This document shows, piece after piece, positions 5,273 through 28,636 of a DNA stretch of 36,423 bases (the first letter of the stretch is position 1; each line of letters begins with the position of its first letter). The translations under genes were made by a program, and so were the position numbers. The notes beneath the pieces were generated by a model. The model made no database searches. It saw only the letters and a list, made by a program, of their open reading frames with translations, and was not told the DNA's origin. Source of the DNA: an uncultured bacterium (GTDB lineage: Bacteria; Bacillota; Clostridia; Lachnospirales; Lachnospiraceae); NCBI GenBank assembly GCA_947381965.1, contig CANCXX010000045.1, forward strand, positions 1-36,423. The letters are read 5' to 3'.

Positions 5273-8200
5273 TTATTCCCCAGAACTGCGTTTCCCCTCA
5301 CGGACAGAAAGCGCCGCCAAAAGAATACCAGCCATTCCAAGGACTGCAAGAAGATAAATCGGCGAGGTGCGTCCAGTCTGGATCACAGGACCATTCTCTG
5401 TCCCTGCTCCAGGTCCTCCCGCTGCTGTATTCCCGGATTTTCCCACTGTAGGAATGTCCGTTTTTTTATCCGCACTGACACCTGAACCGGTATCTGCTAC
5501 AGCAGCTCCCGTTTTGGTGCCAGAACTGCTGTTGGTATCTTCAGCACTGCCACCGGCTGATTTATCCCACCCCGCATAAAGGCAGATATCCTGATCCGGC
5601 TTATAAGTACCTCCTGCTTTTCCAATAAATTCCTTCCTGTCAGTATACCAGCCTTTGAAGGTAAATCCTTCCCGTTCTGCGACAGGAAGCTTTACGTCCG
5701 CGCCCTTTGCCACTCTGACAGAGGATTCCTTTACCGTGCCGCCATTGGCGTCATATTTTACAGTGTAAGTATCCACTACCTCTGCGGAATTGCCCTGATC
5801 CGTACTGTCATCTGCATTATCACCATTTTTATCCTCTTCCCTGGTTTTCTCCCATTTTGCATAAAAATCAGTGTCCTTCGTGATACGGTAGGAATCCCTG
5901 TATGCCCCTGCAAACTGTGTCAGGGACTTGTCCAGATACCAGCCGGTGAAATCATAACCCTTTTTCTCCGGCAAAGGCAGGTAAAGTCCTGCGCCCTTTA
6001 CAATGGTAAGCGTCTTATTTTTCAGTGTGCCTTCCTCTGTGTGGAATGTCACTTTGCATGTCTCCTGCCCCTTATCGCCGGTTTCTTCCGCTTTTTCCTT
6101 TTCCCAAAGGGCATAGACCGTCATATTCTTTGACACTTCCAGCTCATCACCGGCAAGACCGAGAAGGATGCCGCCCTTTTTCTCCGTATACCAGCCAAGG
6201 AATACATAGCCGGATTTTTCCGTGCCGGGCAGGATAATTTTTTCCCCTTTTGCCGCCTTTACGGGTGCGGCTTTCCTTCCTCCATTGGGATCAAAGGTAA
6301 TGAGATAAGTAATCTCCGCTTTCTTTTCATAATGCGCTTTCAAAATGATATCTCCGGTGACAGTAAATTTCTCTCCTGCCTGTCCGGCACAGATATCCCC
6401 GTCATACCAGCCCGTAAATTCATAGCCATCTTTGGTACAGGCAGGAAGCATAATGGTATCGCCCACTTTTGCGGTAATATCCCCGCCTTCCATCTCTCCC
6501 CCGTCCGCGTCAAAAGCAACGGTGCATGCAGACGCTTCTTTCTTCACATAATGGGCTTTCAGAATAACATCATCAGCGACAGTATAGTCTTCCCCTGCCT
6601 GTCCGGCACAGGTATCCCCATCATACCAGCCTACAAATTCATAACCTTCTTTGGTACAGCTGGGAAGGGTAATAGTATCGCCAATCTTTGCGGCAATATC
6701 CCCGCCTTCCATTTCTCCCCCGTCCGCGTCAAAAGCAACGGTTGCTTCTGTTTTCTCCCATGCGGCATAATAGGAAGCGTCCTGCCGGGGCGCATAATAC
6801 TTCTCCCCTGCATTTCCTGCAAATACAGTCAATTCCTCGTCTTCATACCAGCCCTTAAAGCGGTAGCCCTTTCTGGAAGCGTCTGGGAATACCGTATTCG
6901 CACCGGGAATAACCTGCTCACTTTCCGTCTCCCCCGTCCCACCGTTAAAGATATAAGTCAGGGTGATCGGATCTTTTTCCTGCCACTGTGCGTAGAGGAA
7001 AAGGTCATCTGTCAGACTGATTTCCTGTCCGGGCATATAGCTGGTACCTGATCCGTCCTTCTCCGTGTTCCACCCGGTAAAGTCACAGCCGAACTTCACA
7101 AGATATCCCATAAGCGGAAAAAGCTCTTCTTCCCCCATGATGACCACGGTATCTTCGCTGGTATAGTCATTGGGATCTGAGCAATACACGCTGCTGTATC
7201 CAGGGGAACTGTTATTCGCATCATAAGTTACCGTATAAATCTTCGGCACTTCCGCAAGATAAAGGTTCTCTCCCCGTTTTTCCGTGCGGTAATTCGGGCA
7301 GTGCCACACAAACTGTTCCGTGCTGGCGTCCTTATGGTAAAGCGTCCCGTCAATTAAAACCCTGCCCGGCTTGATCGTGTCGTAACCGCCCAACACAAAG
7401 GTGGAATCGCTTTCAAAATCTTCATCCAGCAAGATGGAAGCACCCGTATTGTAAAAATAATGGATATCGCAGGGTTCATAACCCACGGAAAGGTTATCTT
7501 CCATGACAATATGCCCGGATAAGATAATCCCCGTCTCGTTCATGTAACAGATTGTGCCCCCTGCATGGATTTTTTCCCCCGAACGGTTTCCGGTAATCGT
7601 GCAGTCGCGGATGACCAGCGCCTTTGTACCTTCCCCTTTGCTCGTCTGTATTGCACATCCCCTTGGGGCTGTGTTTCCGGTAATGGTACACCGTATCAGC
7701 TTCGCCTGATCCCCTGTAGTCATATAGACGCCGCCACCGTCATAGCCGGAGCTGTTGCCTTCAATGACACAGTCAGTCATAACCAAAGATAAGGTTGACC
7801 ATACCGCGCCCCCTGTCGAATCGGAATTGTTCCCGCTCAGTTCCATGTTGGACGCTTCGGAAGGCCCCATGAGCCCAAGCGCCCCTCCCCATACAGCCGC
7901 ACAGTGGCGGATCGTGCCTGATGTGATTGTAACTTCTGCGGTCTTTGAGGACTGGATGCCGCCGCCTGCTCCCAAAGTATAGCAGTCCTGTATTAAACCG
8001 CCATCCATGACCATGCCAGCGTCCCATGTGACATCTACCGCCCCTGCAGTCCTTACGCTTCTGGAACTGTCCACGCTTTCAGAATAATCGGTGTTATAGT
8101 TATTCTGGAGAACTGTCCCTGCTTTCATAGAATAAAAGCCTTTCACATAGATGAGGGGACTGTCCCATACCTGTCCAGTGTTGTTGAAATCCTTATCCAG

Positions 8201-8863
8201 CACCGCACCACCATCAAGAATAATATTCTGCGTGACAAGACTGCCGCTGCTTATCCCGACCAAAGCATTTCCAGCATCTTCGGCATAATTTTTACCGGCA
8301 AACGCTTCTTCCCTGCTAATAGTTACCGGGGTTTCCGCATTTTCACTCTCTAAGGTAACGTTATCAGCAGTAACCTCAAGCGTCTTTGACACGCTGCAGT
8401 CCTTAAGGACAGTAATCGTGTCGCCAGCCTGTGCATTGTCAAAAGCCTCTTCCAGCTCTTCATACTGGATATCCCCGATCCTTGCCTCATAAGTAACAGT
8501 AGTATCCTGCTCCTGATTTGGCTTCCAGTTGGCATATAACCGCATGTCACGTTCCGGTGTATAGACACTCCCTGCCTTTCCGATCGCTGTACATACAGTC
8601 ACATCACCTTCATCATTCACATCCACCCAGCTTTCCAGATAATGCCCCTCATAGAATGCGTCAGGTAATATAATGCTTTCTCCTCTGGGTACAGAAATGC
8701 TTTCCGTCTCGCATGTTCCCTCATACGCCTCAAACTTGACCGTATAACTGCCCTCTTCGGCTGCCTTAACGGGAAGCGGGACGCTCCCAAGGATTCCCGT
8801 TACAACCGTGGCTGCCGCCGCAAAGCATGTAAGAAGCTTTGTCATGATTTTCTTTCTTCCCAT
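5273..8863 (-). CDS. Sortase-anchored surface protein with beta-helix and InlB-type repeats
   Basis: This 1196-residue protein is probably displayed on the cell wall and may act in adhesion or mating contact. A signal peptide covers about 1-34 (hydrophobic core, then VKAAEE). One InlB B-type repeat (about 40-115) is followed by a right-handed parallel beta-helix region (about 125-530) rich in short ITGN/GGA turns. Seven more InlB B-type repeats (FxGWY...YAxW pattern) fill most of the rest. The C-terminus has a Ser/Thr/Gly-rich spacer, a sorting-like motif PVIQTG, a hydrophobic helix and a basic tail (REGKRSS). The motif is not LPXTG and fits the divergent motifs used by class B sortases. The start ATG has AAAGGAAG upstream. 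The gene for the likely processing sortase lies directly downstream. Confidence 0.9.
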   Translation of the reverse strand: MGRKKIMTKLLTCFAAAATVVTGILGSVPLPVKAAEEGSYTVKFEAYEGTCETESISVPRGESIILPDAFYEGHYLESWVDVNDEGDVTVCTAIGKAGSVYTPERDMRLYANWKPNQEQDTTVTYEARIGDIQYEELEEAFDNAQAGDTITVLKDCSVSKTLEVTADNVTLESENAETPVTISREEAFAGKNYAEDAGNALVGISSGSLVTQNIILDGGAVLDKDFNNTGQVWDSPLIYVKGFYSMKAGTVLQNNYNTDYSESVDSSRSVRTAGAVDVTWDAGMVMDGGLIQDCYTLGAGGGIQSSKTAEVTITSGTIRHCAAVWGGALGLMGPSEASNMELSGNNSDSTGGAVWSTLSLVMTDCVIEGNSSGYDGGGVYMTTGDQAKLIRCTITGNTAPRGCAIQTSKGEGTKALVIRDCTITGNRSGEKIHAGGTICYMNETGIILSGHIVMEDNLSVGYEPCDIHYFYNTGASILLDEDFESDSTFVLGGYDTIKPGRVLIDGTLYHKDASTEQFVWHCPNYRTEKRGENLYLAEVPKIYTVTYDANNSSPGYSSVYCSDPNDYTSEDTVVIMGEEELFPLMGYLVKFGCDFTGWNTEKDGSGTSYMPGQEISLTDDLFLYAQWQEKDPITLTYIFNGGTGETESEQVIPGANTVFPDASRKGYRFKGWYEDEELTVFAGNAGEKYYAPRQDASYYAAWEKTEATVAFDADGGEMEGGDIAAKIGDTITLPSCTKEGYEFVGWYDGDTCAGQAGEDYTVADDVILKAHYVKKEASACTVAFDADGGEMEGGDITAKVGDTIMLPACTKDGYEFTGWYDGDICAGQAGEKFTVTGDIILKAHYEKKAEITYLITFDPNGGRKAAPVKAAKGEKIILPGTEKSGYVFLGWYTEKKGGILLGLAGDELEVSKNMTVYALWEKEKAEETGDKGQETCKVTFHTEEGTLKNKTLTIVKGAGLYLPLPEKKGYDFTGWYLDKSLTQFAGAYRDSYRITKDTDFYAKWEKTREEDKNGDNADDSTDQGNSAEVVDTYTVKYDANGGTVKESSVRVAKGADVKLPVAEREGFTFKGWYTDRKEFIGKAGGTYKPDQDICLYAGWDKSAGGSAEDTNSSSGTKTGAAVADTGSGVSADKKTDIPTVGKSGNTAAGGPGAGTENGPVIQTGRTSPIYLLAVLGMAGILLAALSVREGKRSSGE
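6325..6744 (-). repeat. Near-identical tandem InlB repeats within the adhesin gene
   Basis: Two consecutive InlB-type repeat units (about 6325-6532 and 6547-6744) are nearly identical in DNA as well as protein. Both encode the FDADGGEMEGGDI start and the GWYDGD-CAGQAGE middle. The other six repeats of the protein are far more divergent. This points to a recent tandem duplication, a place where repeat number may vary between strains. Confidence 0.8.
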
Positions 8864-18637: not shown

Positions 18638-19081
18638 TTATATCCCAAACTCCGATAAATCTATCGGGAAACAGTATTCCGGATAGCGCACCTTAACCGC
18701 TTCCCAGAAATATATTGCGTATTCACAGCAGAACAGGTCTTCCACTGTATACCGCTGACACTCCTTTACTTTTTCATCACCCTCAAGGGCATACGCGCTG
18801 GGCGTACCGTTGCAGAAAAGATTGAACGCCATACGCACCACCCTTGCGCTGCCGCTGGTGATCCAACCCTCTTCCAGACACTTTGGCTTTACGCTCCCTT
18901 TTTTGAAATCAAAAATTCTCTCTACATTCCGCCTTGTATCGCCGCTGATCCCAAGACAGTAAACCAATGCTTTATGGTATACGTCCTGCTGCCTGCACTT
19001 TTGCAGACAGTTTCTGTAAAATATTTCGTGTTCCTGATCTTTAAAGGTAATTGTACGTTTATTTCCTCTATTCATATCCAT
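18638..19081 (-). CDS. DUF6075-type ICE protein
   Basis: A 147-residue protein with several Cys and aromatic residues (FYRNCLQKCRQQDVYHKALVY, FCCEYAIYFWEAVKVRYP) and no signal or membrane segment. I believe it is DUF6075, a family found almost only in Clostridia ICEs near the replication genes; its function is unknown. I use the ATG at 19081, since GGCGG lies 7 nt upstream. A GTG two codons earlier, overlapping the SymE-like stop, is an alternative. The gene sits 3 bp after the SymE-like gene and 52 bp before the DUF5348 gene, probably in one operon running into parA. Confidence 0.7.
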   Translation of the reverse strand: MDMNRGNKRTITFKDQEHEIFYRNCLQKCRQQDVYHKALVYCLGISGDTRRNVERIFDFKKGSVKPKCLEEGWITSGSARVVRMAFNLFCNGTPSAYALEGDEKVKECQRYTVEDLFCCEYAIYFWEAVKVRYPEYCFPIDLSEFGI

Positions 19082-19083
19082 TG

Positions 19084-19326
19084 TCACACCGCCTTCCCCT
19101 GATATTCTTCAGTTCCTTCCGCTACCATCCCCGCCCCTTTTGGATCAGACCATATCCTGCCTGTCCTTTCCACAATAAGCCTGCCGCCCTCACAGGTTAC
19201 TGATATTCTGTCACCTGTGGAAAATCCTAAATCCCGCAGCCATTTTCCCTGCAGCATGATCAATGGATTGTTTATCTCTATGCTGGTTCCCCTTGCCCTG
19301 TAAACCGTCATTTCCCTCTGCTTCAT
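19084..19326 (-). CDS. SymE-like small protein
   Basis: An 80-residue protein whose middle (GKWLRDLGFSTGDRISVTCEGGRLIVE, about 27-53) follows the SymE pattern, an AbrB-like swapped-hairpin fold. E. coli SymE is the toxin of a type I toxin-antitoxin pair, now thought to act on nucleic acid. In Firmicutes ICEs similar genes are common and untested, so an AbrB-like DNA-binding role is equally possible. TAGGAGGAG precedes the ATG. I see no obvious antisense promoter over its start that would give a SymR-like RNA. It precedes the DUF6075 gene with almost no gap. Confidence 0.72.
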   Translation of the reverse strand: MKQREMTVYRARGTSIEINNPLIMLQGKWLRDLGFSTGDRISVTCEGGRLIVERTGRIWSDPKGAGMVAEGTEEYQGKAV

Positions 19327-19341
19327 ATGTTCTCCTCCTAT

Positions 19342-19491
19342 TTAATCCGGGATAATCTCAACGATCCCATTACATTCAAGAATTTCCCGAATCCTGTTTA
19401 TGCCATCTTCCAGCCTGTCGGAATCATGGATTGCGTCCATAATTTCCCCTGCAATAAATTCCATGCTTCCCCTGGTAATCTGGTTACTCAT
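19342..19491 (-). CDS. Very small ICE-end protein (49 aa)
   Basis: A 49-residue acidic, helical protein (MSNQITRGSMEFIAGEIMDA, ending VEIIPD). The longer frame upstream to 19572 lacks a ribosome site; the chosen ATG has AAAAGGAG about 8 nt before it. It begins the run SymE-like, DUF6075, DUF5348, parA, parB, all in one direction with short gaps. I do not recognise a family. Position suggests a regulator or small accessory factor at the first transcribed end of the ICE. Confidence 0.62.
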   Translation of the reverse strand: MSNQITRGSMEFIAGEIMDAIHDSDRLEDGINRIREILECNGIVEIIPD

Positions 19492-19665
19492 ATAGATTCT
19501 CCTTTTTCTATTTCTGAACAGAAAAGAGGACCAAGCAGCTAATAAATTAACAAACTTAGTCCTCAATATCATTCCACTTCTCTCCGAACACTTTTCCGGG
19601 CAGATCGCTTCCCCTGCACCTCCTTAAAGCGTACTTGTCCCGTTCCTGACAGCTTTATGGTAATT

Positions 19666-19809
19666 TAGTGTCAAGTAGTATGATTTTCAGTTTCAAGATT
19701 AAAAACAGGCCTGTCCCAATCCTTTTTTACTGCTTTTGCAGTGAAAAAATATTTGGACTAAACCAGCGGAACACCTTGATTTTACTGGCTCCCTGCTGAC
19801 TTGACACTA
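19666..19809. repeat. 11-bp inverted repeats around the truncated S8 3' end (possible small insertion or ICE border)
   Basis: TAGTGTCAAGT (19666-19676) faces ACTTGACACTA (19799-19809), enclosing 122 bp, with TAAT next to both outer ends. The right arm lies exactly where the S8 frame leaves the expected family ending (after YPNREWG plus a few residues). The enclosed part gives the last residues of the present reading frame, FSLQKQ. It could be a MITE-like insertion or the border of the ICE. Apart from these arms, I see nothing definite in the gene-free stretch 19492-19726. Confidence 0.45.
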
Positions 19810-21154
19810 TAATATCATAATCCCCCCACTCCCGGTTAGGATACCGTTCTCCTTCCATCCGGTCCGCCCCCCGCATCAGGTAATGCTTTAGTTCCAGGCT
19901 TTCCACTCTGATTTGGTTTCTTTCCACCACAGCCCACTGCAAAAACAGCGCCGATGCCCCTGACGCTATGGCAACCGCCATACTGGACCCGGTTCTTGGA
20001 CCCAAAACCGTACTGATATTCACTCCCGGAGAGCAAATATCCGGTTTTATCTCCCCCAATCTGCTAAATCCCCTTCCAGAGTCCATCCAAAAACTGCCAT
20101 TAACATCATTGTATGTGGTGGTAGTAATCACCTCCTCCACATTAGAAGGCTCTGTCAGGGTGTAGTAAGGGGAGGGACGCAGAAAGTAGGTATCATCCCC
20201 CAAAAATTCCGTTAAAGGAAGCCACATATGGAAACGACTGTTTGAACCGCTGTTTTCCGTAATCGTAACCTGAACCGTCCAGACGCCGGGCGAAGGGTCG
20301 ACAAACCGGAAAAAAATCAATTCTTCCCCTGACTTTTGTTCCACCAGCACATGGTCCACTTGTACCCTTGCCTTGTCATATATAAAGAGAAACTCCCGGC
20401 TGTTCTGCTCCCTGAAATCTACTTTCGGCGTAATCTCGCCCCCAGGAGTACGGATGGATATTGCATGTTGGGCCGGAATATCACCCCAAAGCTCTGCCAC
20501 AAATCCCCTTGTATTCTCCCCCACACGGATTTCCACATTATCAATTGTCTCCCTAAGACCTTCCATTGAGGTTCCCATATAATGGTGTGCACTGTTGCCT
20601 TCATTTCCTCCGCAGACGATTACGGCACGGCTGCGTTTTGTGGCAATCTGTCTTAAATAATCCGCCAGAACGGAATGGCCCGCGTGGTCCCCCATATTGG
20701 TGCCAAGTCCCACACAAATGACCAGCGGCCTTGCCAGCGATATGGCATAGCTTTCCAGATACCTAAGGGCCAACAGTATATCGCTTTCCGCAAACGCCAC
20801 CGCCTGGTCAGACACCAGATAAAAATCCCTAAGATACTGTTTGGCCTGCCGCAGCTTAACCATCACAATACCTGCTTCCGGTGCCGCCCCCAAAAAGCCA
20901 AGTCCGCCCCTTATCACACTCCCTGCCGCAACGCTTGCAAGCGCAGTGCCATGCCCATCCTCATCATAGCTGGGAACGATTTCCCTTGGATTGTCGCTTT
21001 TAAGGGCCATGTCAATAATTTCCTTACGGTACTCTGTTCCGTAAAGAATACCTGCCGGGGGCTCTCCTGTCTGGATTGTCTGATCCCATATGCCGAGAAT
21101 ACGGGTAGTTCCGTCAGGATTTCTGAATACCTCTTCATCATAACGTATTCCCTC
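19727..21154 (-). pseudogene. S8 (subtilisin-like) protease, C-terminal fragment
   Basis: The larger part of a split subtilase gene. From 21154 it reads in frame EGIRYDEEVFRNPDGTTRIL, then ILGIWDQTIQTG, the usual sequence just after the DTG motif in Clostridia S8 proteases. The catalytic His is in DEDGHGTALASV and the catalytic Ser in RTGSSMAVAIASG; the catalytic Asp is in the other fragment at 26618-26956. Excision of the element between them would join the fragments in frame. The protein resembles the CspB/CspC group, some members of which act in spore germination. Its 3' end looks truncated after YPNREWG. The internal ATG at 21010 has no ribosome site, so it is not taken as a real start. 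Confidence 0.85.
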
Positions 21155-21157
21155 TCC
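21149..21157 (-). other. Left att core of the recombinase element
   Basis: GGAGAGGGA on the minus strand (21157-21149). Its GAGGGA part is shared with the other end at 26623-26618, in the same codon phase (GAG GGA). The stop of the nearest recombinase lies about 20 bp away, as is usual for serine integrases placed next to their att site. Confidence 0.72.
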
Positions 21158-21175
21158 AGTTAAATAAATGCAAAA

Positions 21176-22681
21176 TCAGGTATCCGTATTGTTTTTCTTC
21201 CAATAGATTTCTATCTGATTTTCCTTATAGACCAGAATTTTATCAACTAATTGGTCCACTATTTCTGCTGATAATGCAGTAAACCAGTTTTGATGATCTA
21301 ATTCCTCTCTTTCCCTTTCAAGATTTTCAATACTTGCATTTAAAATTTCCATCTCTCTCCTTATTTTTATCCTTATTGTATCATCCGGATCGAAGCTTTC
21401 TGCACTGCCCGACACATAGCAACTGTAAGCCTCAAATTTCTGCTGTTTTATCTTCTTTGTTTTTGCCAGTAATGCGGTTTTCTTCTTTTTTAGATTCCTA
21501 AGCTCTTTATCCATCCTTTCCACAGTTTCCCTGTGCAGTTTATCCAATTTTTCCTCCGCCTGCAGCTTCTCCTGAATTTTAAAAAGAACATGCTGCTCCA
21601 GAAAGTCTGCATAAGCCTTAACCACACAATCTTCCATTAGGTTGGTATACCGGCCCTGACAGGTAAAATAAGGATTTTTTCCCATGCGGTACCGCAGATT
21701 TCTTTTGCAGCAGCCGCAGGCCAGTTTCCCTGTAAGGGGATGGGAGGGCGCATGTCGGGCGTTTCTCTTTTTTCCCCGCCCCTTCTGTACCTTGTCAAAT
21801 ATCTCTCTGTCAATTATCGGTTTATGATGATTATAGGCTGTTATCCATTCCTCACAGGGTCTTAAATGGGTTTTTCCGTCTGCCGGATTCTTTTGGTATT
21901 TCTTCTGCACAATGTTTCCTATATAAATTTCGTTTCGGAGGATTTGACAAATGGTACCGCTGCTCCACAAAAATCCTTTTCCCTTCGGCACTCTGCTTGT
22001 TCTTCCTTTTTCAATTTTATACGAAACAGGCGTCCTTACTCCCATCTGATTGAACAGTCTTGCTATCTCCACAGATGTATATCCTTCCACCGTTAAAGAA
22101 AAAATACGTCTGACTACTTCCGCCTCATCTTCCGCAATCAACAGATTGTGTCTGTCCGTTGGATCTTTTTCATAACCAAATGGGCAGTTCCCACTTACAT
22201 ATAATCCCTGCTCCTTTCTGACGGCAAGAGAAGAACTTACCTTTCGTGCTAAATCCTTACTGTACAAATCATAAAGCAGGTTCTTGAAACTGACATTAAT
22301 GTCACAAATATTTTCCTGACAGTTTTTACTGTCATAATTGTCATTTACAGATATAAACCGTACTCCCATAAACGGAAATATCTGTTCCAGATAGGCTCCC
22401 GCCTCAATATAATCTCTTGCAAACCGGGAAAAATCCTTCACTACGATACAGTTGATTTGGGAATTTCTCACCAGTTTAAGCATATTCTGTATGCCAGGGC
22501 GTTCAAAATTAGTTCCTGTATATCCGTCATCGCAAAATTCCAGTAAATCATAGTCAGAAAAATTATCGGCAACATACCTGCGCAACAGGACTCTCTGCAT
22601 GGTAATGCTGTTGCTTTCGCCTCCTTCTCTGTCATCTTCCTTTGACAGCCGGATATACATTGCAATCTGATATCTTTTCAT
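21176..22681 (-). CDS. Large serine recombinase 1 (att-proximal)
   Basis: A 501-residue TnpX/Ccr-type site-specific recombinase. The N-terminal resolvase domain has the nucleophile Ser13 in YIRLSKED and the DGYTGTNFERPG and VKDFSRFARDYIEAG motifs. The recombinase domain follows (CPFGYEKDP, TSVEIARLFNQMGV). A zinc-ribbon-like part (LACGCCKRN ... YFTCQG) and a coiled coil complete the fold. I start at the ATG giving MKRYQIAMYIRLSKED, with GGAAGG 9 nt upstream; another ATG lies 8 codons earlier. All catalytic elements look intact. It is the last gene of the recombinase operon, ending about 20 bp from the element's left att core. Confidence 0.93.
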   Translation of the reverse strand: MKRYQIAMYIRLSKEDDREGGESNSITMQRVLLRRYVADNFSDYDLLEFCDDGYTGTNFERPGIQNMLKLVRNSQINCIVVKDFSRFARDYIEAGAYLEQIFPFMGVRFISVNDNYDSKNCQENICDINVSFKNLLYDLYSKDLARKVSSSLAVRKEQGLYVSGNCPFGYEKDPTDRHNLLIAEDEAEVVRRIFSLTVEGYTSVEIARLFNQMGVRTPVSYKIEKGRTSRVPKGKGFLWSSGTICQILRNEIYIGNIVQKKYQKNPADGKTHLRPCEEWITAYNHHKPIIDREIFDKVQKGRGKKRNARHAPSHPLTGKLACGCCKRNLRYRMGKNPYFTCQGRYTNLMEDCVVKAYADFLEQHVLFKIQEKLQAEEKLDKLHRETVERMDKELRNLKKKKTALLAKTKKIKQQKFEAYSCYVSGSAESFDPDDTIRIKIRREMEILNASIENLEREREELDHQNWFTALSAEIVDQLVDKILVYKENQIEIYWKKNNTDT

Positions 22682-22762
22682 TTCCAACTTCCTTCCTGTT
22701 AACATACAAAACTGTCATTAACTTGAAAAAACTGTTTCAAATTCTAGATTGTGCTTAATCAC

Positions 22763-24448
22763 TCATTCCTGCACATTCTGACCTTTAAAGGAAAATATTA
22801 TTTCTACCCGGTGATCCTGATAAATTTTGATTTTGCTAATCAGCGCCCCTGCTGCTTCCACCTGAAGCTCATTTACTTCATTTCCATTTTCCAATATACG
22901 TAAAAATTGGTTTTTTCGGGCCGCTTCACAGTCTATTGCCTTAAGCTTTTCCGCTATATGGTCCTGTTGTTTTTGTAAAAAACACAATTTTTTCCTGTTC
23001 TCTTCTTTTATTTGTTTAAAGCGCTCCTGGTCCGTATCTCCTGCCCGGTATCTTAGATACCACTCGCTTTCAAGTTTCTTTATATTTCCAATCTTTTTTT
23101 TATTATGAGACAGCTGTCTGTTTTCTTTTTCTTTCAGCTCTTCCGCTTTCCCTTTATTGCTTTCCACAAGGGGCTGTATTTCAATTGAGAATAATATAAC
23201 TTCCCACCGGACAGCTTCCTTTATAATATCCTGCAGCTCATCTTGCGTTATACTTTTTGAAATACATTTACCTGCGTCAATGCGGGAAATATTGGGACAA
23301 TTATAGCGGTATGCCCTGACGGGTTCTTTAGCGCAGAACTTTTTTTGGGAAGCTATTGTTTTCATTCTTAAACCGCAATTACCGCAATAAAGAATGCCTG
23401 CAAATATGTTCTCGTCTCTGGGGATTTTTTTTGTGCATCCGCTTTTATTTCGCTGTCCGGAAGGCTTTTTAAACTTTTGGGCAGCTGCATAAAACATCTC
23501 TTCATCAATAATCGCTTCATGGGTTTGGGACTTTACAGACCAGTTCCCAGAATCTGTCTCACTTCTTCTTTGTATCCTTTTACCTCTTTCTCCATTTTGG
23601 CGCCAAACCAAACATCCCATATAGACCGGATTAGTCAATACCATTTTAATGCTTGCCTCCGGCCACTGTCTGAGCCTGTTTTTATCCCTGCAGTAAGTCT
23701 CTCCCGTTTTGTGATATTCTGAAGGGCTTACAACTCCTTCTTCATAGAGCCATACAGAAATTTCTTTTATGCTTTTGCCGGAAAGAAACAAATAAAAGAT
23801 ATTTTTGACAATATCAGATGTAATTTTCTGTGAAAAAAGGCATCTTTTACCTTCTGCCTGCTTTGCAAAATATCCATAGGGAGCAACTCCCCCCATATAA
23901 CTGCCCTGTTCCCTCTTTGCCTGTCTGCTGGATTTCACCTTTATGGCGATATCCTTTGCATACATTTCATTTACCAGATTTTTCAAATTTACACCCAGTT
24001 TTTCATTTTGTCCGGTTGTGCATATGCTGTCAAAATTGTCTGTGACAGCTATCAGCCGGACTCCCAGAAAGGGAAAAATCTTTTCAATATAGTTTCCGGT
24101 TTCAATGTGGTTTCTGCCAAAACGTGATAAATCTTTTACAACAATACAGTCTATCTTTTGTGTTCTCACATCCTGCATCATACGTACAAAGCCTTCTCTA
24201 TCAAAGTTGGTCCCGGTTTTCCCTGTATCTGTATAACAGCCTGAAAGAATCATATCCTTCTGGCTGCGGATAAACGCCTTTGCAATTTCTATCTGGGCTT
24301 CAATCGAATCCTTTTTGTTTCCATGTATCTCACAGTCCCGCCCGTCCACAGACAATCTTGCATAAATCCCGGCCCGATATATCCTTTGCGGCCTTTTTTC
24401 CGACTCCATGCCCGGATTTATCTTTTTCTTTTTTGAGACTCTTGCCAT
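22763..24448 (-). CDS. Large serine recombinase 2
   Basis: A 561-residue serine recombinase with Ser33 in GIYARLSVDG, the motifs TGTNFDREGF and VKDLSRFGRNHIETG, the recombinase domain (APYGYF; IKEISVWLYEEG), and a zinc ribbon (YCGNCGLRM ... YNCPNISR ... GKC). A long coiled-coil tail (about 400-520) is probably used for synapsis control. The Lys-rich N-terminus is longer than in its neighbours. It is clearly a distinct paralogue and not a recent copy of recombinase 1 or 3. Gaps of 81 bp and 85 bp separate it from them. In related triplets all three proteins are thought to be needed together; this has not been shown here. Confidence 0.93.
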   Translation of the reverse strand: MARVSKKKKINPGMESEKRPQRIYRAGIYARLSVDGRDCEIHGNKKDSIEAQIEIAKAFIRSQKDMILSGCYTDTGKTGTNFDREGFVRMMQDVRTQKIDCIVVKDLSRFGRNHIETGNYIEKIFPFLGVRLIAVTDNFDSICTTGQNEKLGVNLKNLVNEMYAKDIAIKVKSSRQAKREQGSYMGGVAPYGYFAKQAEGKRCLFSQKITSDIVKNIFYLFLSGKSIKEISVWLYEEGVVSPSEYHKTGETYCRDKNRLRQWPEASIKMVLTNPVYMGCLVWRQNGERGKRIQRRSETDSGNWSVKSQTHEAIIDEEMFYAAAQKFKKPSGQRNKSGCTKKIPRDENIFAGILYCGNCGLRMKTIASQKKFCAKEPVRAYRYNCPNISRIDAGKCISKSITQDELQDIIKEAVRWEVILFSIEIQPLVESNKGKAEELKEKENRQLSHNKKKIGNIKKLESEWYLRYRAGDTDQERFKQIKEENRKKLCFLQKQQDHIAEKLKAIDCEAARKNQFLRILENGNEVNELQVEAAGALISKIKIYQDHRVEIIFSFKGQNVQE

Positions 24449-24533
24449 TTACATCCCTTCCCCGCTTCCAGTTTTATTCCCCTATATCAGACCAAAGTGT
24501 CGCTAACGCCAGATACAAAAATGTTTGCCCTTA

Positions 24534-26144
24534 CTATACTTTTGAAAACAGCTCCTTATATTGGTATTCCAAATATACCCTTTTATCTTCGTATACCAAA
24601 ATACGTTTTACAAAGGAAACCAGCATTTCTCTGGAAAGTTCCTTTATCTGTATGTCTGTTTTCATCTGCCCCAGACATTCATCCGCCAAAACCTTCGCTT
24701 TATAAAGCTTTTTCATTGTTTCTTCCTGACAACAGATGGCTTTTTGAAGCTCCCTGTAGCGGCTTTTGTATATTTCCCCAAAATCTTTAAAATCCTCCTC
24801 TGTAATAACACCCTTTTTCCAATCTTCATGCAAACCATCTTTAATCATTGAATATTTATCCAGCTGGCCCTTCAATTTCTTAATTTCCCTGTCAAAGACA
24901 ATTCCTTCTGCAAAGTTAATTTTTATTTGTTCCACAGAGCTTTGTACGAACTTTTTATTTAAAAATAAAGCTGTCTGCTGCCTAAGTCCGGTCAAAACAA
25001 GACCGTTTAAATCCTCCTCAGAAATCCTGTGCCTGCTGCACGCTCCTCCCTTATTTCTGGTGGGACAGATAAAAGAAACTGTTATTTTTCCTTTATAATG
25101 GTTTACTCTGCGTATCATGGGCTCCCTGCAGTCCCCGCAGAACAAAATTCCGGCATAAATATGGGCTTTTTTTTCTCCCCTTCCTGCGCGGGTATCTATT
25201 TTAAGCTGCTCCTGCACAGTTTTAAAATCTTCCATGGATATTATGGCTTCATGTGCATTTCTCACCTTTGTCCATTCTTCCTCCGGCTTTCTTACAGATT
25301 TTTGTATTTTGTAATTTACCTTTTCCCCTTTTCCCTGCACCAGCGTTCCGGTATAATTTTCGTTTACCAGTATCCTTTTTACCGCAGCTGCAGACCATTT
25401 CATATTTACCCTTGTTACAAAACCTGTCTGGTATTTCTCTCCCTGCAGCTTTTTATATTCCATTGGAGAAAGGATTCCCATCCCATCCAGTAATTCTGCA
25501 ATTGCCAGATTACTGTATCCGCTAATTTTCCATGCAAAAATCCTGCGTACCATACTTGCAGCGTAATCGTCCGGGACCAGCAGGTTTTTGTTATTTTCGC
25601 TTTTCTTATATCCATAAATGGCGAACGCACCGATAAAATCACCCTTTTCTCTTCTGATTTTCTGATGGCTTCTCACCTTACCGGATATATCTCCTGCATA
25701 CGAATCATTGACAAAATTTTTTACCGGAACTACCAGCGATGTCTCATTATAGTCGGCGGTTAAGGAGTCAAAATGATCCGTCAGGGCAATAAAACGCACT
25801 GAAAAAGCCGGAAAGGTCTTTTGAATCAACCGTCCGGCTTCTATATAATCCCGTCCCAGTCTGGACAAATCCTTTACTATCACACAGTTTACATATCCTG
25901 CTTCTATATCCTGCATCATCCGCTTAAATTCCGGTCTGTCATAATTTGTTCCTGAAAAACCATTATCGGAATAAACATCATAAATTTCCATGTTGTTCTG
26001 CTCTTTGATGTAGGACTGTATCATATCCTTTTGGGAACGAATACTATTGCTTTCTGTTTTGCCTTCCCTACCATCCCCGGCGGAACAATCATCACGACTT
26101 AAACGAAGATAAACGGCTGCCTTATAAAATTCCTTTTCTTTCAT
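24534..26144 (-). CDS. Large serine recombinase 3
   Basis: A 536-residue serine recombinase. Ser16 lies in VYLRLSRDD, followed by the resolvase motifs SGTNYDRPEFKRM and VKDLSRLGRDYIEAG, the recombinase domain (FAIYGYKKSE; NLAIAELLDGMG), a zinc ribbon (FCGDCREPM ... FICPTRNKGGACSRH) and a coiled coil. The frame is open for 34 codons upstream, but the ATG at 26144 has GAGAGGG about 7 nt before it and gives the usual short N-terminus, so I use it. It is the first of the three recombinases and starts 56 bp after the small DUF6870-like gene. Confidence 0.93.
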   Translation of the reverse strand: MKEKEFYKAAVYLRLSRDDCSAGDGREGKTESNSIRSQKDMIQSYIKEQNNMEIYDVYSDNGFSGTNYDRPEFKRMMQDIEAGYVNCVIVKDLSRLGRDYIEAGRLIQKTFPAFSVRFIALTDHFDSLTADYNETSLVVPVKNFVNDSYAGDISGKVRSHQKIRREKGDFIGAFAIYGYKKSENNKNLLVPDDYAASMVRRIFAWKISGYSNLAIAELLDGMGILSPMEYKKLQGEKYQTGFVTRVNMKWSAAAVKRILVNENYTGTLVQGKGEKVNYKIQKSVRKPEEEWTKVRNAHEAIISMEDFKTVQEQLKIDTRAGRGEKKAHIYAGILFCGDCREPMIRRVNHYKGKITVSFICPTRNKGGACSRHRISEEDLNGLVLTGLRQQTALFLNKKFVQSSVEQIKINFAEGIVFDREIKKLKGQLDKYSMIKDGLHEDWKKGVITEEDFKDFGEIYKSRYRELQKAICCQEETMKKLYKAKVLADECLGQMKTDIQIKELSREMLVSFVKRILVYEDKRVYLEYQYKELFSKV

Positions 26145-26200
26145 CAGTGTCCCTCTCGTAAAGTACCCGTTAATCCATTTCCTTTCAGCGGCTTTTTGTT

Positions 26201-26473
26201 TTACACCATAAGCTGGATTTTTCTTCTTGCAAACAGCGCCATACACTCATCAATTGAAATCTTTGCATCCTCCATAAATCCTGTCTGTAAAATGTATTGC
26301 CCTACATTTTGCGCAAAAGGGTTGCCTGTTTGTTTCATAAAGGATTTAATGCGGTCTTCCATAGGTTCCTCTGCATCAATCATTATTTTATCCGCTTCTG
26401 CCAGCTCTTCTCTCTTTAAATCCATAATATTCATACTCTGCATACGCCTTAATTCTTCTATTGACAAATCCAT
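26201..26473 (-). CDS. Small DUF6870-like protein, possible directionality factor
   Basis: A 90-residue protein (MDLSIEELRRMQSMNIMDLK and onward) with the pattern IDAEEPMEDRIKSFMKQTGNPF in its middle, which I recognise as DUF6870, a small family commonly encoded next to serine recombinases. It is the first gene inside the element, 56 bp upstream of recombinase 3. It is also in frame with the S8 N-terminal fragment, so an unbroken 251-codon frame runs from the S8 start through the att core into it. A purine-rich GGGAAAG lies before its own ATG. Recombination directionality factors of serine integrases are often small unrelated proteins, so it is a candidate; no motif proves it. Confidence 0.68.
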   Translation of the reverse strand: MDLSIEELRRMQSMNIMDLKREELAEADKIMIDAEEPMEDRIKSFMKQTGNPFAQNVGQYILQTGFMEDAKISIDECMALFARRKIQLMV

Positions 26474-26617
26474 CGCTTTTCTTTCCCACAAATTATGATT
26501 TTCTTTCTTTTCTATTTTATTTTTCTGCCGGAATGTCCTATGACACACGGTTCCCCTCTTTTTCCGTAAACGGCGCCTGAAAAGTCTGATACTTGGCCAT
26601 TTTGACAATATAATGAC

Positions 26618-26626
26618 TCCCTCCCC
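26618..26626 (-). other. Right att core of the recombinase element
   Basis: GGGGAGGGA on the minus strand, ending at 26618. The GAGGGA part matches the left core at 21154-21149 and lies in the same codon phase. Coordinates are fixed from the S8 reading frame (residues 111-113, Gly-Glu-Gly). The next three bases differ between the ends (GTC here, ATA at the other end), which helps limit the crossover to the shared bases. Confidence 0.7.
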
Positions 26627-26956
26627 CGTATCCAAAAAGCCAATTACCACTCCTCTTCCTGTCAGGTTAAGTGCGCCTCCCTGCACCTGCGTAATTCCGC
26701 TGCGGATTAAGGGGGTAGAGTCAAAGGCTCTTCCCTGCTGGTCCTGCATCAAACCATACAGTTTAGGGATAACCGGATAGGTAAAGCTGCTGACACTCAT
26801 GGGAATCACAGAGGAGCGTTCCACATAAGCCACTCCCATTTCCCCGCTGACCGGCTGGTAAACCACTCCTTCCAGTCCGCTCATCTCTGCTGACAATGTA
26901 TAGTCTGCAATTAAATCATAATAGTCGTTGGAAATAATCTTTTCACGGTCTGTCAT
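26618..26956 (-). pseudogene. S8 (subtilisin-like) protease, N-terminal fragment
   Basis: The first 113 codons of the split subtilase, from the ATG at 26956 to the att core. It contains an N-terminal prodomain-like part (DYYDLIADYTLS, VAYVERSSVIP) and the start of the catalytic domain, GRGVVIGFLDTG with catalytic Asp109. Its continuation is at 21154-19727. As it stands, the frame runs on into element sequence and the DUF6870-like gene. The promoter probably lies between 26957 and the clpX terminator at 27003-27060. A TATATT box is visible there, but its -35 is poor, so the sigma factor cannot be named. Confidence 0.85.
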
Positions 26957-27002
26957 TTTCTTAATAAATCCTGCCTGCCGTCTTTAGTGTAATATATGTG
27001 AA

Positions 27003-27060
27003 AAACAAAAAAACGCCCGCAAAATGCACTTTATGTTTCCTGTGCATTCCTGCAGGCGTT
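27003..27060 (-). terminator. Intrinsic terminator after clpX
   Basis: On the minus strand, AACGCC (27060-27055) pairs with GGCGTT (27017-27012), with further pairing of TGCA-type sequence inside, and is followed by a long T-run (27013-27003). It separates clpX from the S8 gene, so S8 must have its own promoter. Confidence 0.85.
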
Positions 27061-27124
27061 CTCCTGTTGCACTCTGCTGGTTTTTACTTCCGGTAAACAG
27101 CAGCCCTCTTTTCCTGTCTATGGT

Positions 27125-28636
27125 TTATTTTTGTTCAATCATCTTCAGATTATCAGGGTTCTCTCCGCTGGTACTCCGTATGTCAATCACCGGCCCTCCG
27201 GTTCCCTCTATATACGCTCTGGTAATTGTTACCCTGCCAATATTATCATCCTTGGGAATTTCATACATAATATCCAGCATAAATTCCTCAATGATTGCCC
27301 GCAGCGCTCTTGCTCCGGTATCCTTCTCCATCGCCTTATCCGCAATAGCTTCCAGCGCGCCTTCGTCAAATTCAAGTTTAACCTCGTCTAGCTCAAGAAG
27401 CTTCTGGTACTGTTTCAGAATTGCATTTTTCGGCTCCTTTAAAATCTTGACCATCATGGGCTTATCCAGCGCTGCCAGTGTGTAGACTATAGGCAGACGT
27501 CCCAAAAATTCCGGAATCATGCCGAACTTTTTTAAATCCTCCACCGTTACCCTGCTTATAATATCCTTTTCCTTGTCAAACTTATCCTTAAGCTCCGCAT
27601 TAAAGCCAATGGAAGTCTGCTTTTTCAGACGCTGCTTGATAATCTCTTCCAAATCCGGGAAGGCTCCCCCGCAGATGAAAAGAATATTTCTGGTGTTGAT
27701 TGTAGCAAGGGGCACCATGGCGTTTTTGCTGTTAGCGCCTACCGGCACTTCCACGTCCGCCCCCTCCAGAAGCCGCAGCATCCCCTGCTGAACGCTCTCT
27801 CCGCTGACATCCCTGCTGGTAGTGTTTTTCTTTTTGGCAATCTTATCAATTTCATCAATGAAAACAATACCTCTTTCCGCCTTTTCCACATCATTTCCTG
27901 CCGCAGTAAGAAGCTTGGAAATCACGCTTTCAATATCATCCCCAATGTATCCGGCCTCTGTAAGGGATGTGGCGTCCGTAATGGCAAGGGGCACGTCCAA
28001 AAGCCTTGCAAGGGTTTTGACCAGATACGTTTTCCCGCTGCCTGTAGGCCCAATCATCAGCATATTGGACTTTTCAATTTCAATATCATCCAGAGTTCCT
28101 GTGGCTACTCTTTTATAATGATTATAGACAGCCACAGAAATTACCTTTTTGGCATGTTCCTGTCCAATCACATAATCATCAAGCTGGGCTTTGATTTTGT
28201 GAGGCGGCGGGATATTCTTTATATCCAGTACTATCTCCTGCCCGGTTTTGGGCTTTTTCTTTTTAATTCTCTGCTTATTGGGTATTCCGCCTTCTCCCTG
28301 CAAATCCGCAATATTCACAAACCGGATATTGGGAAATCCCTTTCCTCCCATATTTTTATTTAAGTCGTCCATCAGTGATGGATTATTCAACATCCCCTGA
28401 TAATCAAACTGGCTCACAGTGTCCATGGTCTTGTGCATACAGTCATTGCATACGGAAATATGGTTAGGAAGCTTGAACATCTTTCCTGCTTTGCTCTCCG
28501 GCCTCCGGCAGATAAAACAGACATCTTCATATTCGCTTTCTTTTTTTTCTTCCTTTTTCTTCTCTTCCTCTTTTTCTTCTGTTCCCTGCGCTTTATCTTC
28601 TAACTGGTTTTTATCTTTTTCATCAAACTCTGACAT
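27125..28636 (-). CDS. clpX: ClpX-type AAA+ unfoldase with long N-terminal extension
   Basis: A 503-residue ATPase that would unfold proteins for the ClpP peptidase. It has a zinc-binding domain with Cys40, Cys43, Cys63 and Cys66 (VCFICRR, CNDC), Walker A GPTGSGKT, Walker B IVFIDEIDKIA, pore loop GYIGDD in place of GYVGED, and the ClpP-docking loop IGF. ClpX is usually 410-430 residues. Extra length comes from a Glu/Lys-rich head (about 1-35) and a longer linker after the zinc domain (about 70-125). Divergence in the pore loop and linker suggests a second, specialised ClpX paralogue; whether another clpX exists cannot be seen here. AAAGGAA precedes the ATG, and a terminator follows the gene. 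Confidence 0.9.
   Translation of the reverse strand: MSEFDEKDKNQLEDKAQGTEEKEEEKKKEEKKESEYEDVCFICRRPESKAGKMFKLPNHISVCNDCMHKTMDTVSQFDYQGMLNNPSLMDDLNKNMGGKGFPNIRFVNIADLQGEGGIPNKQRIKKKKPKTGQEIVLDIKNIPPPHKIKAQLDDYVIGQEHAKKVISVAVYNHYKRVATGTLDDIEIEKSNMLMIGPTGSGKTYLVKTLARLLDVPLAITDATSLTEAGYIGDDIESVISKLLTAAGNDVEKAERGIVFIDEIDKIAKKKNTTSRDVSGESVQQGMLRLLEGADVEVPVGANSKNAMVPLATINTRNILFICGGAFPDLEEIIKQRLKKQTSIGFNAELKDKFDKEKDIISRVTVEDLKKFGMIPEFLGRLPIVYTLAALDKPMMVKILKEPKNAILKQYQKLLELDEVKLEFDEGALEAIADKAMEKDTGARALRAIIEEFMLDIMYEIPKDDNIGRVTITRAYIEGTGGPVIDIRSTSGENPDNLKMIEQK

Follow-up and report, generated by a model that had tools for sequence, protein, structure and literature searches.

A three-recombinase intervening element at the catalytic Asp-Thr/Ser-Gly codons of subtilase genes in Lachnospiraceae

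The stretch of DNA analysed here (the window: 36,423 nucleotides (nt), contig CANCXX010000045.1 of assembly GCA_947381965.1) comes from a gut bacterium related to Parablautia, whose genome we label G000 (G numbers label genomes, L numbers loci). At 21152..26626 on the minus strand, as derived from both junctions and counting one copy of a GG core, an element of 5,475 base pairs (bp) splits csp1, the gene of a CspB/CspC-type subtilase. The element belongs to a family made up of a DUF6870 gene and up to three large serine recombinase genes, and the family uses as its chromosomal attachment site (attB) the first two bases, GG, of the Gly codon within the Asp-Thr/Ser-Gly motif that holds the catalytic Asp of subtilases. 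Our best explanation, which we regard as somewhat probable, is that these are non-viral intervening elements of the kind of gin in Bacillus cereus, lodged in the subtilase Gly codon, and that the window copy is excised in the mother cell with the csp1 promoter as its timer.

Junctions of the element

Searches by tblastn with the two halves of csp1 (N-terminal query 111 amino acids (aa), C-terminal query 447 aa) against 30 csp1 loci of the host's genus revealed that the halves are contiguous in 25 loci and split in the other 5, residue 111 of the N-terminal half and residue 4 of the C-terminal query being the same Gly. All 25 intact loci, the empty sites of the element, read D-T-G-I-R-Y with the Gly present once. 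In the window, the 5′ fragment (26624..26956, minus strand, 111 codons) ends in F-L-D-T-G with the catalytic Asp, and the 3′ fragment (19727..21151, minus strand, 474 codons) starts with GIRYDEEVF and contains the catalytic His in HGT and Ser in GSSMA; because the catalytic Asp sits in the N-terminal fragment, the C-terminal fragment is not a complete protease on its own. An earlier note, made from the sequence without database searches, had recognized a protease split by a three-recombinase element, with both halves in the same codon phase and Asp, His and Ser all present, and in these respects it was right: the halves belong to one subtilase, and three large serine recombinase genes lie between them.

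To 12 right and 12 left ends that were aligned, the right ends in G190, G255, G373, G397, G341 and G455 and the left end in G397 were later added, so that the junctions read came to 18 on the right and 13 on the left. A single stretch contains both ends in the window, G004, G013 (csp1 and the second paralogue, csp2), G034, L041, G331 and G397, and a single contig, read in parts, does so for csp2 of G000 and of G029; in G015 the two halves are on different contigs, and in L040, G190, G255, G373, G341 and the third subtilase gene (S3) of G455 the right end alone was read. On the right side, the base that follows GG tracks the host and may be A, G, C or T, whereas on the left side it is G in 11 of the 12 aligned ends (A in csp2 of G015), from which it follows that the exchanged core is the GG dinucleotide. 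The crossover therefore falls on the first two bases (GG) of the Gly codon that completes the catalytic Asp-Thr-Gly motif, with the left copy (attL) at 26625..26626, positions 1 and 2 of that codon, and the right copy (attR) at 21150..21151, both on the minus strand, and the predicted excision product reads DTGIR. A two-base core is the size expected for serine integrases, according to PMC5595907. The element's left end, GGGGAGGGAGTCATTATATTGTCA, begins at the attL GG (from 26626, minus strand), and its right end, TTTAACTGGAGAG, stands before the attR GG on the same strand; by a 70% rule the 12 left ends give the consensus GGGGA..GTGTTATT.TATTGTCA and the 12 right ends GCA..T..TT.ACA..AGAGGG. 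The same GG was placed at all 18 right and all 13 left junctions, in three subtilase genes, a recurrence that exceeds chance; the right junction of G341 is the weakest of the set, as it rests on the alignment and a less typical end.

These junctions correct the earlier note in two places. The GAGGGA that it took for the core is shared because it stems from the element's own two ends, and beyond the GG the right junctions carry the host's base. Uninterrupted genes exist in related genomes, and the joint Gly-Glu-Gly-Ile-Arg that it predicted for them is present in none of the 25 intact genes read in the genus. The note had itself said that the lack of any such gene would count against it; with GEGIR absent from the intact genes, the joint falls and the idea of excision does not. 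Precise excision would, almost certainly as judged from sequence, restore the csp1 frame as the note had supposed, to DTGIR and not to DTGEGIR.

Genes of the element and of its host

Four genes, the main open reading frames (ORFs) of the element, follow one another with short gaps on the minus strand, the strand of both csp1 halves. D (26201..26476) encodes a DUF6870 protein of 91 aa (PF21757, E value 2.4e-17) and sits in the reading frame that continues from the csp1 N-terminal fragment; its position makes it a candidate directionality factor. R1 (24534..26144) encodes a large serine recombinase with Resolvase, Recombinase and Zn-ribbon domains and the motif YLRLS; the listed ORF starts with GTG at 26246, and the ATG at 26144 is the likelier start. 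R2 (22763..24448; YARLS) and R3 (21176..22705; YIRLS) encode two further large serine recombinases, and the Y-x-R-L-S motif is thus kept in all three; the nearest curated models for R3 are CcrB and XisF, both below cut-off. Pfam matches of the four genes are limited to recombinase-type families and DUF6870, and no phage structural gene was seen in the element. No intein or homing domain is among the Pfam matches and Rfam gives no match in 19000–28000, which led us to reject an intein or a self-splicing intron.

The best Protein Data Bank match of an intact csp1 orthologue (L010) is CspB of Clostridium perfringens (4i0w, E value 4.6e-58), with other germination proteases next, in agreement with the earlier note's view of the host gene as CspB/CspC-like. 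Scores of csp1 against the NCBIfam models CspBA (227 bits) and CspC (208 bits) are far below the cut-offs, so we treat it as a relative within the Csp family and claim no orthology. The last approximately 27 codons of the window csp1 are absent from most orthologues. This C-terminal tail comes from a short stretch at the end of csp1 (19666–19813) that has inverted TAGTGTCAAG and CTTGACACTA at its borders and looks like a miniature inverted-repeat transposable element; tails of a similar kind are present after the csp-like ends of G009:C27 and G000:C11:21916.

The csp1 promoter and a model for excision

A −10 box of the sigma-K/sigma-E type, CATATATTA, lies at 26990..26998 on the minus strand, 33 nt before the csp1 ATG. 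Within 100 nt before csp1, CATANNNTA was found in 26 of 29 upstream regions versus 25 of 525 background regions, and CATATANTA in 24 of 29 versus 5 of 525, a background that may itself contain a few csp regions. Most of the csp1 CATANNNTA boxes (24 of 26) stand 19–33 nt before the ATG; the two at 59 and 90 nt may be chance. Sigma-E and sigma-K share similar −10 boxes and are distinguished by the −35 element, ATA versus AC, and a sigma-K promoter with −10 CATATAAT and −35 AC has been described (PMC3789822). Among the 25 csp1 boxes no more than 60 nt from the ATG, 16 have AC at the sigma-K spacing of 15–17 nt (random rate 0.12), and none has the sigma-E ATA at 12–16 nt. The csp operon of Clostridioides difficile is sigma-E dependent according to PMC3789822. 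For csp2, CATANNNTA occurs in 8 of 13 upstream regions. Among sporulation genes, the genome encodes SpoIVA (E value 3.3e-120) and a sigK-like gene (275.8 bits, below the cut-off of 298.65). On the minus strand of the 19.7–27.2 kb region the csp1 box is the sole CATANNNTA, and a terminator scan gave a single minus-strand match, at 23897, and none from the csp1 start to R1. By these data csp1 has a conserved promoter of the sigma-K mother-cell type that points into the recombinase genes.

In the model that we favour, sigma-K or sigma-E, once active in the mother cell, would drive transcription of 5′csp1-D-R1-R2-R3 from the csp1 promoter; one or more of the recombinases, with D or another factor setting the direction, would join attL and attR; and a 5.5-kb circle would be excised, so that the terminal mother cell would gain a full csp1 frame (DTG-IR) and the spore would retain the element. 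The interrupted gene's own promoter would serve as the timer, a mode of working like that of gin in Bacillus cereus gerE. We infer the co-transcription, the role of D, the timing and the function of Csp1, and we rate the prospect that excision takes place in development as evenly balanced. More tentatively still, these elements might be regarded as DNA-level 'inteins' specialised on the subtilase Asp-Thr/Ser-Gly codon, which would survive because the mother-cell promoter of the interrupted gene drives the recombinases, so that the protease is rebuilt only in the terminal mother cell and the spore line keeps the element.

Distribution and mobility

Of 36 genomes of the genus, 5 have a split csp1 (G000, G004, G013, G015 and G034); of the remaining 31 copies, 25 are intact as read, 5 are intact by frame length only, and the halves of G023 are contiguous at a contig edge. 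The split form of csp2, the second paralogue, occurs in 5 of 35 (G000, G013, G015, G029, which is Parablautia muri, and G455), both genes being split in G000, G013 and G015. In G455 the DTG of S3 is likewise interrupted, as it is in G341, there with the less typical end and without an intact near relative for comparison. Outside the genus, csp-type genes are split in L040 (Candidatus Acetatifactor stercoripullorum), L041 (an uncultured Lachnospiraceae bacterium), G331, G190, G255, G373 and G397. On this evidence the element family spans three kinds of subtilase in at least seven genera of Lachnospiraceae, with insertion always placed at GG in the Gly codon of D-T/S-G.

A search with R1 through 397 genomes of the family (E ≤ 1e-170) returned 14 places in 12 genomes, the window included; the place in G291 was left out of locus inspection. 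Besides the window, the places in G190, G255, G373 (one of two), G397, G341 and G331 adjoin a subtilase 3′ fragment; that is, outside the genus six of the seven R1 places of the subtilase group do so, and the seventh, in G299, ends at a contig edge after R3. At the second G373 place and in G199, G407, G028 and G000:C3, the subtilase queries used found no subtilase fragment. A scan of the same 397 genomes with an 18-base right-end pattern gave 38 places in 36 genomes versus 18 for a reversed-pattern control; one of 30 loci inspected had a subtilase fragment (L143, G331), and a further match, in G397, later proved real.

Recombinase trees were built with FastTree, with the other two window recombinases as outgroups and with the second, non-subtilase copy of G373 (SUB_G373_1) excluded from the counts. 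In the R1 tree all 14 subtilase-splitting sequences fall into one clade with those of G299 and G001 and with none of the 12 'other' sequences (support 0.976); in the R2 tree all 12 group with G299 and the G029:C139 copy, which appears twice from overlapping loci (0.89); and in the R3 tree all 11 group with G299 and G029:C139 (0.846). G001 aside, recombinase clade and landing site therefore go together, with G029:C139 as the one exception.

The elements behave as horizontally mobile site-specific insertions. By non-synonymous divergence (dN), the copy nearest to each split csp1 is an intact one: G004 is nearest to G009 (dN 0.007, synonymous divergence (dS) 0.14), the window to G020 (dN 0.151), G034 to G010, G013 to G021, and G015 to G032, G031, G002 and G027. 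As split copies are nearest to intact ones, insertions must have been repeated, or repeatedly lost. We rejected plain vertical inheritance, because the csp1 tree scatters split among intact copies; R1 identity to the window copy (53–68%), which does not track csp1 identity, also counts against it.

The earlier note saw no cargo other than recombinases and one small gene, which is correct for the window copy and not for all relatives. The G034 element carries FapA and an HD-domain response regulator, that of G331 a similar regulator, that of L041 NACHT-pentapeptide and Na+/H+ antiporter genes, and that of G004 an APH-family kinase and a MatE protein. The cargo of L097 (G034) and L181 (G331), in two genera, is related, both having a FapA-type gene (by Pfam in G034, by a similar start in G331) and an HD-domain regulator. 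Sister elements at G000:C3:104061-105683 (L172), L168, L171, L174–L177, L226 and L227 have mostly the same D-R1-R2-R3 order, with R2 and R3 only about 33–37% identical; no subtilase fragment was found beside them. A pattern search for R3 in viral contigs gave seven stretches and no relative. Searches with R1 gave 4 plasmid records at 1e-80 and 22 phage records at 1e-40, all below 60% identity, and the 6 phage records inspected are unverified linear scaffolds. These six (MT837953, MT838759, MT837243, MT837168, MT837700 and MT838398; L228–L233), entered as 'Bacteriophage sp.', are 5–8 kb long and come from human faeces; their serine recombinases are 32–40% identical to R1, and they are possibly mobile elements filed as phage.

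Recombinase genes are themselves interrupted in places: three R1 genes and one R3 gene are broken or have their start near residues 53–60, next to the D-G-x-S-G motif (L116 in G004, L173 in G029, L170 in G001 and L122 in G015). The gap contains other serine recombinases in G004 and G029, and a second element family may target recombinase genes.

Regulated excision versus other explanations

All 18 C-terminal fragments are open from the GG to the stop at about natural length (447–495 codons in the csp types, 266 and 273 in S3), and HGT is kept in 17, L040 having GHGS. The ratio of non-synonymous to synonymous divergence (dN/dS) is not raised in split csp1 copies, with pairwise medians of 0.0746 for split–split (10 pairs), 0.0753 for split–intact (125) and 0.0739 for intact–intact (300) comparisons, dS being near saturation in most pairs. 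Of 178 invariant csp1 residues, 6 are changed in the window, 3 in G015, 2 in G013 and none in G004 and G034, as compared with 0–5 in intact copies (p = 0.32). The open fragments and the unraised dN/dS speak against a possible but doubtful alternative, a plain site-specific genomic parasite that uses conserved subtilase codons as its landing site and simply inactivates csp1, without regulated excision; recent insertion could explain both. The constancy of the in-frame dinucleotide at the junctions and the conserved mother-cell-type promoter also argue against it. Under such parasitism csp1 would be dispensable because paralogues exist, and the explanation gains from the scattered distribution, with each split csp1 nearest to an intact copy, from the three genomes in which csp1 and csp2 are both split, from decayed or nested elements, from the higher ratio of non-synonymous to synonymous differences (pN/pS) in split csp2, and from the failure to find a circular form in the window's own assembly or in viral contigs.

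Several of these observations, with others, weigh against excision in the mother cell. The 92-base junction of the circular form (attP) has no more than its two half-matches in the window's own assembly, and three attP junction patterns gave no match in viral contigs. The window csp1 promoter lacks AC at −35, the window csp1 breaks more family-invariant residues (6 of 178) than any other copy, and the function and expression of Csp1 are putative. A canonical Ser motif was matched in 11 of the 18 C-terminal fragments, 5 more having variants and G373 and G341 none, which may be a sign of decay or of the pseudoproteases that occur in this family. In csp2, constraint looks weaker on the split copies: in a sample of 4 split and 6 intact sequences, with pS saturated, pN/pS is 0.291 for split–split (6 pairs), 0.235 for split–intact (24) and 0.176 for intact–intact (15) pairs. 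Elements have decayed in G013 (no R3 or D) and G034 (no R2 or R3), nested insertions interrupt R1 in G004 and G029, and G029:C139 is an exception within the recombinase clade, an orphan R2–R3 pair with no subtilase found beside it. The csp2 of G000 (G000:C11:36945-57840; L120, L204) is split at its Asp-Ser-Gly codon by 19.2 kb that hold no relative of D, R1, R2 or R3. These 19.2 kb include the stronger of only two GluRS matches in the genome (273 versus 93 bits, each below the cut-off), so that excision there should harm a growing cell. In G015 the halves of csp1 and csp2 are on separate contigs (L203, L206, L118 and L122). Such decayed and rearranged copies fit a parasite that sometimes simply kills its target.

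The G000 csp2 stretch also has chemosensory-type and ABC-transporter-type genes (named from their sequence), and in G020 its chemosensory genes stand directly upstream of an intact csp2, a gene order by which the G000 locus resembles a rearrangement at an attachment site, not a simple insert. The G015 halves adjoin what look like housekeeping genes, namely enolase-like, biotin-type and coaBC-like ones as named from the starts of their sequences, a hint of large rearrangements between attachment sites.

We consider it improbable that the element is a phase-variation switch, with low-frequency excision and re-insertion in growing cells and a population mixed for the protease. Three recombinases could conceivably serve both directions, and yin in yabG of C. 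botulinum is described with integrated and excised subpopulations that shift with growth phase (PMC10747680). Nothing in the window's sequence favours reversibility, its assembly holds no excised form, and the excision of gin, which needs GirX (PMC5595907), and of the C. difficile skin, which needs CD1234 (PMC5025042), is tied to sporulation. That the halves and the element were wrongly joined in a chimeric contig is scarcely credible. The assembly does consist of 92 contigs with an estimated contamination of 7.31%; the same structure with conserved ends recurs in independent assemblies of several genera, which is why we rejected an artefact, and clpX lies directly upstream of the window N-terminal fragment and shortly upstream of intact csp1 in G020 and G028 (in G008, the third relative examined, it is about 11.5 kb from intact csp1).

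Elsewhere in the window, 5273–8863 encodes what is probably a surface protein, 1,196 aa long, with a beta-helix and seven stretches of Listeria–Bacteroides repeats (Flg_new).

Implications

If these elements act as such DNA-level 'inteins', the supply of germination protease in a number of gut Lachnospiraceae would be gated by DNA rearrangement. A tie between excision and the split gene's promoter would explain how the element persists without harm to its host, and spore germination in commensals would then depend on DNA rearrangement. With one catalytic codon hit in three subtilase types and at least seven genera, the target would be a motif of a protein family in place of a single gene, a case that we did not meet in the literature searched; searches of one open-access collection listed no paper that, by its title or the opening of its abstract, describes such an element in csp or subtilase genes. 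The recombinases also make up an enzyme set that shares a two-base core and whose empty sites are known.

Comparison with known systems

Developmentally excised elements are known from sigK (PMC5025042), spsM (PMC4191935) and gerE (PMC5595907), and yabG has been reported as a further interrupted gene (PMC10747680). The skin of sigK, described in C. difficile (PMC5025042), and SP-beta in spsM (PMC4191935) resemble the window element in that a serine-recombinase element splits a sporulation gene, but they are prophages or prophage-like with a single recombinase that carries out the rearrangement (PMC5595907). No phage structural gene was seen in the window element, and the sigK skin, which the earlier note had named as an example, is thus a less apt comparison than gin. 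Another gene interrupted by a developmentally excised element is spoVFB.

Among curated models XisF is the top match for R1 and R2 and the second for R3, at 89–120 bits versus a cut-off of 375. XisF is the large serine recombinase that excises the fdxN element of Anabaena in development, in a host and a developmental process that differ from those considered here. Staphylococcal cassette chromosome (SCC) elements, with CcrA, CcrB and CcrC, likewise combine several large serine recombinases with one conserved chromosomal site, in rlmH; the best model for R3 is CcrB, at 105.6 bits far below the 900-bit cut-off, and the element does not qualify as an SCC. Inteins and homing introns colonize highly conserved catalytic codons of a protein family, but no such domain or Rfam match was found here, and removal would take place at the DNA level.

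The closest known system is gin, and the window element is a variant of this kind of intervening element. Gin, as described in PMC5595907, is a non-phage element with three serine recombinases inside gerE of Bacillus cereus ATCC10987 that is excised in sporulation; it has 28.6 kb and 31 genes, with girC away from girAB, and only GirC and the 42-aa GirX are required. The likeness lies in the non-phage character, the three serine recombinases, a precise excision restoring the frame (predicted here), and a cargo that varies between strains. It may also include a small extra factor like GirX, for which the DUF6870 gene is a candidate by its suitable position, and may extend to the host genes, as gerE is a sporulation gene and csp1 is of the Csp family by sequence, with a sigma-K-type promoter. 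The window element differs from gin in that its three recombinase genes form one collinear row with the DUF6870 gene, the cargo can be nil, and the insertions hit the catalytic Asp codon of more than one kind of subtilase, across several genera.

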